This document shows positions 1,163 through 17,749 of a stretch of DNA of 22,213 nucleotides, piece by piece. Numbering within the stretch: the first letter of the stretch is position 1; each line of letters opens with the position of its first letter. The notes under the pieces are model-generated. The model had not been told where the DNA came from, made no database searches, and was given only the letters and a program-made list of their open reading frames with translations. The stretch comes from a virus. A program made the position numbers and the translations under genes. Where the stretch lies: positions 1-22,213 of IMG/VR virus record IMGVR_UViG_3300028610_000063; one strand, given 5' to 3'.

Positions 1163-1978
1163 CTACGAAGTGGAAGTCTCAGGTGCATCGGTGTGTCCGA
1201 TGACACCATCGAAGGTGCCAGTACACGCTACATTTACTGTGTCGGTGACGACCTGCAACTTCAAGATGGCAGGCCCATCGACGGTCATCGGTGGTCTTAT
1301 AGTAGTGTCGTAGCGTGAGTCGCGGCGAAAATTCCATTCTCGCTGCGTGCGCTCACCGCTGGTTGCTTGATCTACCGTCGTCTCAACGATTAGGCGCCCG
1401 ATGGCGTCGGCTGAAGAGTTAGCCAGCATGTCGGTTGCGATATGGTAGATAGCGAGGCGGGTCTGTGCTGGTACTGCGTAGATTGCCATAAGGGTTTGCC
1501 CTACGCCAATCTGAATTACTGCGGTGACGGTGGCGTCCGTAGCGGCAGTAGCCTTGATGATACCGGCGTTTGTCGCGTTGACTCCGAAGGACATCCCCAT
1601 CATTCGGTAGATGATTACGTAGGCGTTTGCGGTGTTCACTGGAGTCGCACCGTCGAGGGAGACAATCTCTCTTGTCTCTTCGGTGTCGGTCCATGAGGTC
1701 AAGCCGTGAATCATTATGGTTCTCATACCGTCGCCATCAGCGGCATCGTCATCCTCTGCGTCAGACGAGACGATGGCATGTACTCGTGCTGCCGTTGGAG
1801 CAACCCAAATATCAGTGCCAGTAAGACCATCGGCACCATCCCAGATGTCGGTGGCTACATCGGAATCACAGTCAGGGGCGTGCCCAAACTTGTTGATGGC
1901 GTGGTAGTCAGCCACATTTCCGAAGGCGACCTCTAAGAGGAAGTCGCCGCTTTGAGTGTTAGGTTTGAATATAGTCAT
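1163..1978 (-). CDS. Conserved phage structural protein (271 aa, tail/virion-associated)
   Basis: The N-terminal third carries a NKFGHAPDCDSD...DIWDGADG segment (about residues 29-51). I recall this signature from structural proteins of unknown function in marine and other phages. It is followed by an acidic SSDAEDDDAADGDG stretch and a beta-rich body. There is no membrane segment. The gene starts four bases after the tail-fibre stop and has no clear Shine-Dalgarno, so translation is probably coupled to the fibre gene. Next to the fibre it is likely a tail- or fibre-associated virion component. The family match is from memory and the exact role is unknown. Confidence 0.75.
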   Translation of the reverse strand: MTIFKPNTQSGDFLLEVAFGNVADYHAINKFGHAPDCDSDVATDIWDGADGLTGTDIWVAPTAARVHAIVSSDAEDDDAADGDGMRTIMIHGLTSWTDTEETREIVSLDGATPVNTANAYVIIYRMMGMSFGVNATNAGIIKATAATDATVTAVIQIGVGQTLMAIYAVPAQTRLAIYHIATDMLANSSADAIGRLIVETTVDQATSGERTQREWNFRRDSRYDTTIRPPMTVDGPAILKLQVVTDTVNVACTGTFDGVIGHTDAPETSTS

Positions 1979-1982
1979 AGGA

Positions 1983-3533
1983 TTACGCTGAGGAGCTATC
2001 GGTGATTAGGCCGTAGTTCGCCAGTTCTGTTAGCAGACTCGCGAGGGCAGCGTTGCCTCCGCGTGAGCCTGTGATTGCTGGTTTGGTAATTGGGGTTGTA
2101 CCGTTTGCTCCAAACTTCCCGACTTCTACCGGGGCGCTGAAGGTAACGAGGTCTACGGTGGTGCCGGTACGGTCCACTTGGAAGACGTTTGCGCCGAAGG
2201 CCGCTGCGTCAGTCAAGGTACGGAGACGTAGTGAGCCAACTGTAGCAAGGAAATCCCACATCTTTTCGTTGCTGGCCGCATTGGTTTGATTCCACCGATA
2301 ACGAGGTGTGGTGGCTTCCATCTGGAGGATTGAGCCCACAATAGTTTGTGAGCCTGCGGTTGTCAGAACGTCAGAGCCACCTTTTTGGAGAGAGGCGGGG
2401 AAGTTTACTGAGTCTACGGTCGTGCCTGTCCGCTCTACAACCATGACATCGGCTGTGACAACGACGGCATCGTCTACGAGTCGCAGTTTAAGCGCCTCAC
2501 CAAAAGCGCCGAACTGCCAGTTCTTGTTATCGGCAGCACCATCGGTTTCATTTAGAAAGAGTTGTGGAGACCCAATTGAAATCCAAAGCGCTGAGGTTAG
2601 GGCATTACCCGAGCCAGCAGCTAGAGGTAGGTAGTCTCCGAGGTCCGTGATGTCTGCTTCGAGGTGTGTGTGGCCGGTAGCGGAGATTCCTGCCTCCGAG
2701 AGCGACTTGTCTTCCCAGACGGAGCCTGCGCCGTACTGAAGCACGTCTCCGGTGGTCGCACCAGCGATCAGTACGTCTGAGACTTCGTGATCTAGTGTCG
2801 TGTGATCGAAGATGTGCGCGAGGATTACGCCATTCCCAACTCCTACCGCGATAACGTGCCCGATGTGGACAATGAAATCGGGCGGTGTCGGCCTGACGTT
2901 AACGAACTCTCCAGCAGTTGTCGAAAGGTAAAGCTCGTCGCCCGCTGTCATCCCGCTTGTATTCACATCTCGAACAAGACCCGCAACGGTGATGAAGCCG
3001 TTGGAGTTGTGGTCGATGTCCTCGGTGGCAAAGCCGATGACTTCGGAAGTAACTTCCGCAGAAGCGTCAGCCTCGGCGATCAGCGGCTTATTGCCAGAGG
3101 CGCCTGTCATATAGACCGGGGTGCCGTTAGTGATCGTTACGCCGGTTTCGTTCCGGCTGCGAATTAACTGCTCCTGTCCGATCTGAAGGTTGACGTTGCC
3201 TCCCGGCATGCCAACCTCTAGTGTGCCGTCTTCGCTATTCCATTGTAGTTTGCCTTCGGCGGTGCCGTCAGCGTACAGGAGGTCAAACTGCACGAAGTCC
3301 GAGAGGATACTCGGAACCTCTAGCTGCGCCGTCATTGGGTCGTTCGAGGCGTCGAGCATGAGGAACTTGGCATCGGCTGCGGCCTGCGTGTACTTGTCGA
3401 GGTCTGTGATGTCAACTTCGAGGTGTGTGTGCGCGCCGGGGACTGATGCCCCCGAGAAGATACCACCGGAGGAACCGCCCCTCTGCACGAACCGATCTCT
3501 CGGTACTCTGCGGGGTGGAATCTTTCTTGCCAT
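1983..3533 (-). CDS. Tail fibre / receptor-binding protein with modular repeats
   Basis: The 516-residue protein has the modular look of phage fibres. A short basic N-terminus is followed by HTHLEVDITDLDKY at residues 35-48, repeated as HTHLEADITDLGDY at 288-301; such HTH-ITDL linkers are common in tail fibres. Residues about 120-240 match a familiar fibre domain pattern (NGTPVYMTGASGNKP, IGFATEDI, VAGLVRDVNTSG). Two related modules follow, about 321-380 and 406-468, sharing N.(K/E)..W.F and (E/D)RTGTTVD. The gene begins immediately after the terminase stop with GAGG seven bases upstream. In T7 the fibre gene lies before the terminase, so placement differs. It probably binds the host surface. 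Confidence 0.82.
   Translation of the reverse strand: MARKIPPRRVPRDRFVQRGGSSGGIFSGASVPGAHTHLEVDITDLDKYTQAAADAKFLMLDASNDPMTAQLEVPSILSDFVQFDLLYADGTAEGKLQWNSEDGTLEVGMPGGNVNLQIGQEQLIRSRNETGVTITNGTPVYMTGASGNKPLIAEADASAEVTSEVIGFATEDIDHNSNGFITVAGLVRDVNTSGMTAGDELYLSTTAGEFVNVRPTPPDFIVHIGHVIAVGVGNGVILAHIFDHTTLDHEVSDVLIAGATTGDVLQYGAGSVWEDKSLSEAGISATGHTHLEADITDLGDYLPLAAGSGNALTSALWISIGSPQLFLNETDGAADNKNWQFGAFGEALKLRLVDDAVVVTADVMVVERTGTTVDSVNFPASLQKGGSDVLTTAGSQTIVGSILQMEATTPRYRWNQTNAASNEKMWDFLATVGSLRLRTLTDAAAFGANVFQVDRTGTTVDLVTFSAPVEVGKFGANGTTPITKPAITGSRGGNAALASLLTELANYGLITDSSSA
2640..2672 (-). repeat. Intragenic repeat copy 2 in tail fibre (HTHLEADITDL module)
   Basis: This 33-base stretch is nearly identical to 3399-3431, with 30 of 33 positions agreeing by eye. 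It encodes the second HTHLEADITDL linker. The similarity at DNA level, not only protein level, suggests fairly recent duplication or continuing recombination between fibre modules. Confidence 0.75.
3399..3431 (-). repeat. Intragenic repeat copy 1 in tail fibre (HTHLEVDITDL module)
   Basis: This is the partner of the repeat at 2640-2672. It encodes the N-terminal HTHLEVDITDL linker near residue 35 of the fibre. The two copies are in the same orientation about 760 bp apart, so recombination between them would delete the central part of the fibre while keeping the frame. Confidence 0.75.
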
Positions 3534-5303
3534 TTACATACCTCGTGGTTTACGGCGCCAAATCCTGCTGGCGCGGCTAGTGTGTTTGCGTGGTCGAGTG
3601 CCAAGCGTGTGCGATTGGCCGGGGATGTCCTTCGCCCACGACTTTAACTCCTGTGCGAGGAGCTTCGCCCTGTGCCGCTCGACGCCTCTGTTGGCGTTCA
3701 TCTTTACCCGATCCTCGAAGAACGATGCCGCCATCTGGACGGCTTCGAGCCTGTCCTCGTGTGCGATGGCACCCTTCTCCCGCATCATGCGGGTCATCTG
3801 ATAGATCAGGGAATACTTGGTCGTGTTCTTGAGTTGCGCTTCACGGATGTCGGACTCCAGCACGTCGCGGCTGACGATCAGCCGGTGGGAGCCCATCAAC
3901 GGTTCGAGGGTGTCGCAGATTCGATTCTCTTTCATCTGGACCCCAGCGACCGGATCGTGAATCTCGGCTTTGCATCCTGCGGTGCGGAGCTTCGGCTCTA
4001 ACAGGGCGGTGAACATCCCGCCGCCGTAGTTGGCCTCGGCTACTACGTCGTTGACGCCCCAATAGGCCGCACGTTCTGCGAGGCCGGTCAGGGTCAACTC
4101 GGCGAAGCCGTCTGTAAAGCCTCCGACTTCCATCACGAAGAGGTAGCCGTAGAGCGCTTTCATTATACAGTAGGCCGTCTCGTCCTTACCCTTACCTGAC
4201 GGGTCAATAGCCATGACGGTCCCGGTGTACTCGGTCATTTCGTTGCTACGCCAGACGGGGAAGTAGCACTTGTCCCCTTCGAAGCCTATCGGCCCTTCGG
4301 ACCACTTGGCGTCGGCGTGGTTGCCCCACACGTACTTGACGTGCGCCATCTTGTCGTCGAGGGCGTCTACGATCAGGTTGCGGAGCTTCAGCGGGTGTGA
4401 CTCGGCTGACGCTGCCTGCGTGTTGAGCATGAACTGCAATTGGAAGCCAGCGCGGCCATATTCTAGCTCACGACCGGCGAGGTCTTCTTCGTGGAAACGT
4501 GAAGGCTCTGTGGGGTCTCCCACGAGCACTGAGTCATCGTCCATCATGCGCTCAATCATCGGCGCGAGCGAGCACCGCATAGTGCGGCCTACGATCTCGC
4601 CTTTGGTGCCGAGTTCGACAAACTCCTTCATGTACTCGTCCCGGCTCTTAGGAACACGAGCAGGCCAGATGCGCATATCATAGCCGAGCCCCGGCAGCAT
4701 GTTGTAGAGGCTGGACTCCACTTGGGGAGTACCTAGCCACTTGATCTTGCCACCCGGCTTCAGGACGGAACGAAACTCCTTGGTTCGCTCGCGGGTGTCT
4801 TCCCGCATGTGTTCCGTAAGGGAGTTCGTTGGTACTTCAATATCATCAGGAACGATCAGGTCGGCGCGGGAGCCCGTAAGCTGCCCCTTGAGTCCGATAC
4901 TCTTCACAGTCGGTGAAGGATCGAAGGCGATTGCTCGCACGTCGAACTTGTCGTTGGCCCATCGTCTACCCACTGCCATGTGCGTGAGCACTGGCACTTC
5001 CTCCAACATGCCCTTGATGAACAAGGACAGGCCATCTGCGTGGCCCTGTGACGCCGACACCAGCATGATCTTCATCGTCGGTTCCCAGAGGAGGGACCAG
5101 CCGACATACGCTCCGGTCAGCCACGTCTTCGCGGCTCCTCGGAAGGCTTGAATCATACTGAAGTTGGGTCCGTGTTGCAGGTAGTTCGCCATGTTTAGCT
5201 GAAGCGGCGTAGGCTTGGGCAGACCGAGGTGACGCCAGAGCATTCCCACGAATACGCGGAAATCCCCTAGCCCCATCTCCGTCAACTGCTCCTTATTTAC
5301 CAA
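3534..5303 (-). CDS. terL: Terminase large subunit (T7 gp19-like DNA packaging ATPase/nuclease)
   Basis: The 589-residue packaging motor protein cuts concatemeric DNA and pumps it through the portal. The ATPase half shows a Walker A-like AFRGAAKT (53-60), a Walker B ADLIVPDD (147-154) and a motif III WLGTPQ (189-194). The nuclease half has acidic residues at AIDPSG (D367), VAEANYGGG (E423) and HEDRLEA (E516/D517), fitting an RNase H-fold terminase nuclease. The C-terminus is strongly basic. The start is TTG at 5303, overlapping the small subunit by seven bases, supported by AGGAG seven bases upstream. An ATG nine codons later is a possible alternative. Length and motifs match the T7 gp19 family. 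Confidence 0.95.
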   Translation of the reverse strand: MVNKEQLTEMGLGDFRVFVGMLWRHLGLPKPTPLQLNMANYLQHGPNFSMIQAFRGAAKTWLTGAYVGWSLLWEPTMKIMLVSASQGHADGLSLFIKGMLEEVPVLTHMAVGRRWANDKFDVRAIAFDPSPTVKSIGLKGQLTGSRADLIVPDDIEVPTNSLTEHMREDTRERTKEFRSVLKPGGKIKWLGTPQVESSLYNMLPGLGYDMRIWPARVPKSRDEYMKEFVELGTKGEIVGRTMRCSLAPMIERMMDDDSVLVGDPTEPSRFHEEDLAGRELEYGRAGFQLQFMLNTQAASAESHPLKLRNLIVDALDDKMAHVKYVWGNHADAKWSEGPIGFEGDKCYFPVWRSNEMTEYTGTVMAIDPSGKGKDETAYCIMKALYGYLFVMEVGGFTDGFAELTLTGLAERAAYWGVNDVVAEANYGGGMFTALLEPKLRTAGCKAEIHDPVAGVQMKENRICDTLEPLMGSHRLIVSRDVLESDIREAQLKNTTKYSLIYQMTRMMREKGAIAHEDRLEAVQMAASFFEDRVKMNANRGVERHRAKLLAQELKSWAKDIPGQSHTLGTRPRKHTSRASRIWRRKPRGM

Positions 5304-5566: not shown

Positions 5567-5764
5567 CTATCCTAGCTTGAAGGCGAGTCCGATGAGTGCC
5601 AAGACTGCGGTGATGGCACCGGCTAGGCCGTTGCGCCATGCTTTCAGCTTGTCGATCTCTTCGTCTTGTTTGGCGTTGACACCTTTGATATCCTTTATAT
5701 CTACGTGCATTTGTCTCGTGCGCTCGTCAATCCGAGCGAGCAAGACCTCCGTTGATTCGGGCAT
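5567..5764 (-). CDS. Small XhlA-like / class II holin-like membrane protein (65 aa)
   Basis: The 65-residue protein has an N-terminal charged helix likely to form a coiled coil (about residues 1-42, ARIDERTRQ...KQDEEIDKLK). A single membrane segment follows near the C-terminus (about 45-62, GLAGAITAVLALIGLAF). That layout matches haemolysin XhlA-type phage proteins. The position, after the gp16-like gene and before terS, is that of the T7 class II holin gp17.5 (67 aa). The open frame extends upstream, but the ATG at 5764 forms a TAATG overlap with the preceding stop and gives a compact protein. It may be the holin or a lysis regulator; the role is inferred from topology and synteny. Confidence 0.75.
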   Translation of the reverse strand: MPESTEVLLARIDERTRQMHVDIKDIKGVNAKQDEEIDKLKAWRNGLAGAITAVLALIGLAFKLG

Positions 5765-17632: not shown

Positions 17633-17674
17633 GAGGTAGTCCTTATATAATGAAAGGGAAAAGGGTGCTGCAAG

Positions 17675-17749
17675 TTGGCCTTCGAGGATTTGAACCTCGG
17701 ACCTACCGCGTATCAGGCGGACGCTCTAACCAGACTGAGCTAAAGGCCA
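17675..17749 (-). tRNA. tRNA-Ile (GAT)
   Basis: A 75-base cloverleaf folds with acceptor TGGCCTT/AAGGCCA, TA at 8-9, and D arm GCTC-AGTCTGGTTA-GAGC. The anticodon loop is CTGATAC (anticodon GAT), and the T arm is CGAGG-TTCAAAT-CCTCG. The discriminator is A. The top pair of the anticodon stem is a mismatch. CCA is not encoded (CTT follows). The first pair is U1-A72 rather than the A1-U72 of E. coli tRNA-Ile, which is slightly unusual. It lies between the capsid terminator and the tail tubular A gene, so it would be made from transcripts that read through the terminator or start locally. Confidence 0.93.

Follow-up and report, generated by a model that had tools for sequence, protein, structure and literature searches.

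The tail fiber of an uncultured T7-like podovirus is probably modular. Comparison with the fiber genes of its relatives suggests that a conserved N-terminal anchor and C terminus enclose interchangeable blocks, which are joined by a linker containing an HxH motif (HTHLExDITDL) and re-joined at this linker by recombination.

Putative tail fiber gene in a T7-like podovirus fragment

The window analyzed here is the whole 22,213-base stretch of DNA of IMG/VR virus record IMGVR_UViG_3300028610_000063. Its minus-strand genes encode a head-tail connector, a Gp10A-like capsid protein, a nozzle, an internal virion protein, and a T7-type terminase. The structural module of T7-like podoviruses was recognized by PF22530; by PF25675, PF21703, and PF12236, above cut-off; and by phrog_38, phrog_457, and phrog_6651. 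By its gene content, the window is a fragment of a T7-like podovirus. The fiber gene and its parts are listed below; L046, L048, and L050 are contigs of relatives.

3534-5303: large terminase gene, with the fiber ORF directly downstream
1983..3533, minus strand: tail fiber ORF, 516 aa, adjoining the large terminase gene
3432..3533, minus strand: N-terminal anchor, aa 1-34, common to the fibers of L046, L048, and L050, the anchor DNA of these being 64-71% identical to the window
3399..3431, minus strand: linker 1, HTHLEVDITDL, aa 35-45, identified from direct repeat D2 and codons
2805..3176, minus strand: core of the middle module, aa 120-243, with a predicted beta-tulip (capsid-decoration-like) fold
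2640..2672, minus strand: linker 2, HTHLEADITDL, aa 288-298, identified from direct repeat D2, with a weak match to Pfam PTR
2379..2594, minus strand: shaft module copy 1, aa 314-385, from its alignment to copy 2
2118..2333, minus strand: shaft module copy 2, aa 401-472, from its alignment to copy 1 and DNA repeat D1
1983..2117, minus strand: C-terminal part with the motif ITGSRGGNAALASLLTELANYGLITDSSSA, which is kept in L046, L048, and L050

Residues 79 to 267 of the ORF matched annotated tail fibers of named phages at no more than 42% identity. A total of 20 of 50,697 named phage records matched the ORF, none of them over 80% of the query, and the whole 516-aa ORF matched no PHROG family. 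On account of the matches to annotated fibers and the repeats, its product is considered a putative tail fiber, with the N-terminal anchor presumably serving attachment to the virion. When the window fiber was searched against PDB chains with phmmer, no match was obtained at an E value of ≤1, and a whole-fiber model built from a four-sequence alignment (pLDDT of 35.8) was too poor for a structure search.

Several other features were observed around the gene. A phrog_8198 gene of unknown function (1163-1978, minus strand) lies between the fiber gene and the next gene; it also follows the fiber gene in L050; L046 and L048 lack it in this position. ARAGORN and Rfam both identified a tRNA-Asn (gtt) gene at 453-526 and a tRNA-Ile (gat) gene at 17674-17749, both on the minus strand, the former lying within the reading frame of ORF 78-527.

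Repeats within the fiber gene

The linker copies at 2640-2672 and 3399-3431 were identical at 30 of 33 bases (91% as a 34-mer), in agreement with the original prediction, which had put the number of identical positions at about 30. They formed the best of 122,760 in-frame 33-nt pairs within the fiber gene; in 40 codon-shuffled genes, the best 33-nt pair reached at most 22 of 33, with a random null mean of 10.1. The longest exact block shared by the copies spans 16 nt, and no other 16-mer of the window recurs as a direct repeat. The two linkers used the same codon at 9 of 10 identical residues, while 4.6 were expected from the codon usage of the window (P ~0.0035). Thus, the likeness of the linkers exceeds protein likeness. 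The copies lie 759 bases (253 codons) apart and, as had been claimed, this spacing keeps the frame: a cross-over from linker to linker would leave an open frame of 263 aa.

At the protein level, HTH occurs at aa 35 to 37 and 288 to 290, so that HxH motifs stand between segments as in T4 gp37. The window fiber scored 14.9 bits against Pfam PTR (PF12789), below the cut-off of 27, and is not filed as a member; L046 passed with 38.4 bits at aa 57 to 105, and L048 and L050 gave no match at an E value of ≤0.1. A search of the linker consensus peptide against the 50,697 named phage records, which is insensitive with so short a query, returned four matches at an E value of ≤1, one of which covered 80% or more of the peptide.

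A second pair of related modules had been predicted downstream, and the two shaft copies confirm it, with an alignment score of 127 against a mean of 27 and a maximum of 48 in 300 shuffles. The two copies agreed in codon at 14 of their 29 shared residues, where 10.8 agreements were expected (P = 0.13), and DNA repeat D1 (2133-2177 and 2394-2438; spacing of 261) was 73% identical. In sequence, this genuine pair looks like an old duplication.

Variable fiber architecture among relatives

A terminase query retrieved five IMG/VR contigs (L046 to L050), and a terminase profile search retrieved the same five. Four complete fiber genes of the lineage were compared, those of the window, L046, L048, and L050; the fiber gene of L049 is truncated, and contig L047 breaks off within the terminase gene. 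Terminase DNA identity to the window was 82.3% for L046, 82.1% for L050, and 75.9% for L048. The terminase gene of L050 (967-2713) falls into two ORFs that overlap, 967-2046 and 2036-2713, as a result of a frameshift or an assembly error.

All four fibers had the N-terminal anchor and the C-terminal motif in common and differed in their middles. The invariable architecture that had been named as the opposing outcome was not found among these relatives; instead, architecture was strongly different, with 905 aa and five linkers in L046, 516 aa and two linkers in the window, 454 aa and one linker in L050, and 447 aa and one linker in L048. Over the last 105 nt of the gene, the relatives were 68 to 75% identical to the window, and the C-terminal part of the window fiber, used as a query, retrieved one relative only. 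L046 contains internal repeats of 156 bp (93%) and 94 bp (88%), which contain or start at a linker and look, from their sequence, like recent block duplications. A second repeated unit, HDGTxF, was present in four, four, and three copies in L046, L048, and L050, respectively, and absent from the window fiber; three of the L046 copies were 91 to 94% alike over ~65 nt. Hence, further exchange points exist in these three relatives, which counts against the linker as the full explanation.

Junctions at the linkers

The contig names of L046 and L050 share one sample number, and the terminase genes of the two are 89.5% identical. Their fiber genes were identical at 163 of 183 positions (89%) before the first linker and at 27 of 33 inside it, and fell to background after it. 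Similarity stops at the border of a conserved linker even when the linker plays no causal part in exchange. Flanks of 36 nt on each side were compared for nine linkers of four genes (36 pairs). Among left flanks, 4 same-block pairs scored 22 to 33 of 36 and the remaining 32 pairs scored 7 to 18; among right flanks, 9 same-block pairs scored 18 to 33 and the remaining 27 scored 12 to 16. This table, whose 36 comparisons are uncorrected for multiple testing, was judged by the gap between the groups, as the floor of linker flanks (7 to 18 on the left, 12 to 16 on the right) exceeds the random null mean given above.

With the flanks of window linker 1 designated A (left) and a (right) and those of linker 2 designated B and b, linker 5 of L046 combined B (24/36) with a (32/36), and the linker of L048 combined A (22/36) with b (20/36), the b match being the weakest (76% over 50 nt). 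Each of A and B is thus found with each of a and b, the pattern that re-joining of blocks at the linker would produce. These junctions make block exchange at linkers well supported by sequence in this lineage, and we infer that pairing between linker copies caused them. Tempering this reading are the weak b match, the number of complete fibers (four), and the length of the exact repeat (just 16 nt).

DNA matches at linkers were also more often one-sided than two-sided (185 versus 13 between genes, with 211 confined to the linker). This excess was not used as evidence because 161 of the 185 were right-sided, DITDLDKY had served as one of the search patterns, and the conserved unit extends past the linker.

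DNA ancestry or protein constraint

Alternatively, the linker may be a conserved protein element only, either an HxH trimer clamp or a phage tail repeat. Unguided recombination would then shuffle the modules, selection would keep breaks at domain boundaries, and the DNA likeness would stem from protein constraint and the common descent of copied blocks. We consider this rather unlikely. Codon identity was analyzed in 64 fiber genes with 107 tabulated linkers, a set found partly via linker patterns and thus no measure of linker frequency; 1 of 108 linkers, at which the gene of L144 ends, was omitted. Only contained sequences were removed from the set, so the near-copies L019/L020, L022/L023, and L138/L147 stayed.

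Across unrelated phages, linker codons agreed at expectation (0.382 versus 0.392; 5,028 pairs), as a purely protein-level role would have it. Within genes of phages outside the window lineage, L015 excluded, identity was likewise near expectation for the group (0.505 versus 0.480; 37 pairs), and the middle module moves without linkers (see below). Against such a role stand the 9 of 10 shared codons of the window linkers, their unique 16-mer, and the values of the window lineage, which were 0.577 versus 0.401 expected within genes (11 pairs) and 0.540 versus 0.409 between genes (25 pairs), linker codon pairs not being independent of each other. Identity above expectation points to linkers of this lineage with a recent common DNA ancestry that have changed position. 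As a sequence signal, the excess fits linker-guided exchange and also the simple descent of copied blocks.

In L015, linker codon identity within the gene was 0.784 versus 0.552 expected (55 pairs). From position 5620 onward, this locus holds a fiber-like ORF of 2,036 aa with 12 linkers, apparently a tandemly expanded fiber.

The middle module

The middle module was found in 18 IMG/VR loci. Together with three from another search, 21 loci were inspected, some being mutual copies and some having genes cut by contig ends. The match started at aa 76 to 81 in 11 of the 21, ~30 aa past linker 1, and its right end was diffuse (aa 187 to 484). An HTH linker was present in the same gene in 2 of the 21 (L177 and L045), which speaks against exchange at linkers as the general route. 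As the middle module resides mostly in linker-free fibers, modules also move by other routes. The original proposal that the fiber can swap its middle therefore stands in part: the fiber is modular and blocks have been re-joined at the linker in relatives, but linkers are not the sole route.

A model from a 17-sequence alignment gave blockwise pLDDT values of 86 to 94 over aa 128 to 237 and a Foldseek E value of 4e-4 against solved structures. In VIA-align (aa 120 to 243), the best hit was 8qsy_JJ, the portal-capsid-interface chain of HFTV1 (Z of 12.4; rmsd of 2.6; 109 residues), followed by phage capsid entries of FCWL1 (Z of 11.1), Pam3 (10.8; rmsd of 6.9), and T1 (10.6). Lower scores were obtained for the C-terminal fragment of phi29 gp12 (9.4) and the phi29 head fiber base (8.1), and the lowest named were lambda gpD (6.1) and the P74-26 decoration protein (5.8), a Z of <8 alone being little proof. 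The module is thus predicted from its model to adopt a beta-tulip fold like that of capsid decoration proteins.

In sequence searches, the window segment scored 21 bits against Phage_cement_2 (PF09956), just under the cut-off of 24, and the whole fiber was not listed at an E value of ≤1. Ten of the 17 aligned members matched PF09956 at an E value of ≤0.01, and 3 of 10 members scored singly passed the cut-off (L167, L169, and L176); the head decoration family phrog_122 was matched by 3 of the 17. The module profile gave one chance-level row against PDB sequences (E value of 0.59), and one NCBIfam row was rejected as implausible. Against BFVD, the model had 135 matches at an E value of ≤0.001, and some of the best 50 of these were named tail fiber proteins, which indicates a widespread phage module.

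Beta-tulip decoration proteins trimerize on capsids, and the phi29 head fiber has such a base (PMC7602432). The middle module resembles these proteins and the phi29 head fiber base gp8.5 in fold. In contrast to them, it sits inside a tail fiber gene, and capsid binding is not expected of a fiber.

Predicted deletion between the linkers

Recombination between the repeats had been proposed to delete about 760 bp and so produce shorter fibers. A degenerate pattern for the deletion junction had one match in IMG/VR, the contig behind L048; the pattern was written after L048 was known, and the search may omit near records. L048 was rejected as a simple deletion derivative, since its downstream block matched over ~50 nt only and the sequence then differed. 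No relative carried the window fiber minus 759 bp. Thus, a junction of the deletion type was found, but the predicted derivative was not, and the 759-bp deletion in the window phage is hypothetical.

In a stronger version, the linkers would recombine regularly within the population, with a 263-aa short fiber lacking the middle existing beside the full form as a long/short switch. The frame-keeping spacing and the L048 junction, the only IMG/VR match to its pattern, are in line with such a switch, and phage PP01 offers a precedent: during laboratory evolution, gp37 lost 579 to 686 bp in four of four populations, and attachment was faster in a clone that combined the gp37 deletion alone with wild-type gp38 (PMC6027323). 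Shortening of a fiber can therefore be selected. However, the short form of the window fiber was missing among relatives, the L048 block matched over 50 nt only, and the pattern was composed with L048 already seen, which together make the switch very improbable. The PP01 and window cases are alike in that ~600 bp within a fiber gene was lost in PP01 with viability and advantage, and differ in that PP01 is a T-even phage under laboratory evolution and the window deletion is only predicted. A literature search found nothing on T7 direct-repeat deletions or on in-frame fiber deletions between direct repeats.

Block exchange and known fiber systems

Exchange at linkers, the preferred explanation, would proceed as follows. 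The linker DNA would be alike enough for recombination, either inside one gene or across the genes of relatives that infect together; recombination at the linker would join different blocks with the frame kept, yielding fibers of 447 to 905 aa with one to five linkers. The fiber is likely trimeric and presumably contacts the host. By analogy with T4 gp37, the HxH linkers may clamp the fiber between its shaft blocks, with histidines holding the trimer via a metal. A further step would be that HTHLExDITDL DNA is an in-frame cross-over cassette, kept alike so that the fiber gains, loses, or swaps blocks, including the beta-tulip domain, and diversifies itself with neither a dedicated recombinase nor a dedicated reverse transcriptase. 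This extension is speculative, and we hold it to be unlikely.

In T-even phages, the distal tail fiber gp37 and the adhesin reportedly undergo swapping between conserved motifs, in work by Tetart et al. from 1996 and 1998. The window fiber shares with T-even gp37 the HxH motifs, recombination between conserved motifs, and block duplications and swaps; it differs in belonging to a T7-like podovirus and in having the HTHLExDITDL linker between internal blocks. In T4 gp37, the HxH motifs hold iron (PMC11705849). The tail fiber of podovirus R22Y likewise contains several such motifs, six in number and proposed as iron sites; the passages on R22Y treat them in that role and do not take up block exchange (PMC11705849). 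Published closely related phages have near-identical N termini followed by unrelated C-terminal parts, as in this lineage. Unlike in those phages, described in a main text that does not contain the word "linker," the break here coincides with a repeated linker.

The window fiber is thus a new example of known fiber plasticity of the T-even type rather than a system of a new kind. In this uncultured T7-like lineage, sequence alone sufficed to locate the exchange of fiber blocks at a linker of 33 bp, and relatives contain both of the reciprocal junction types. Such exchange is a known way for phages to vary the part that contacts the host. If linker DNA identity steers the recombination, motif-guided fiber shuffling would include environmental podoviruses in addition to T-even phages, and metagenomes could be used to measure it.
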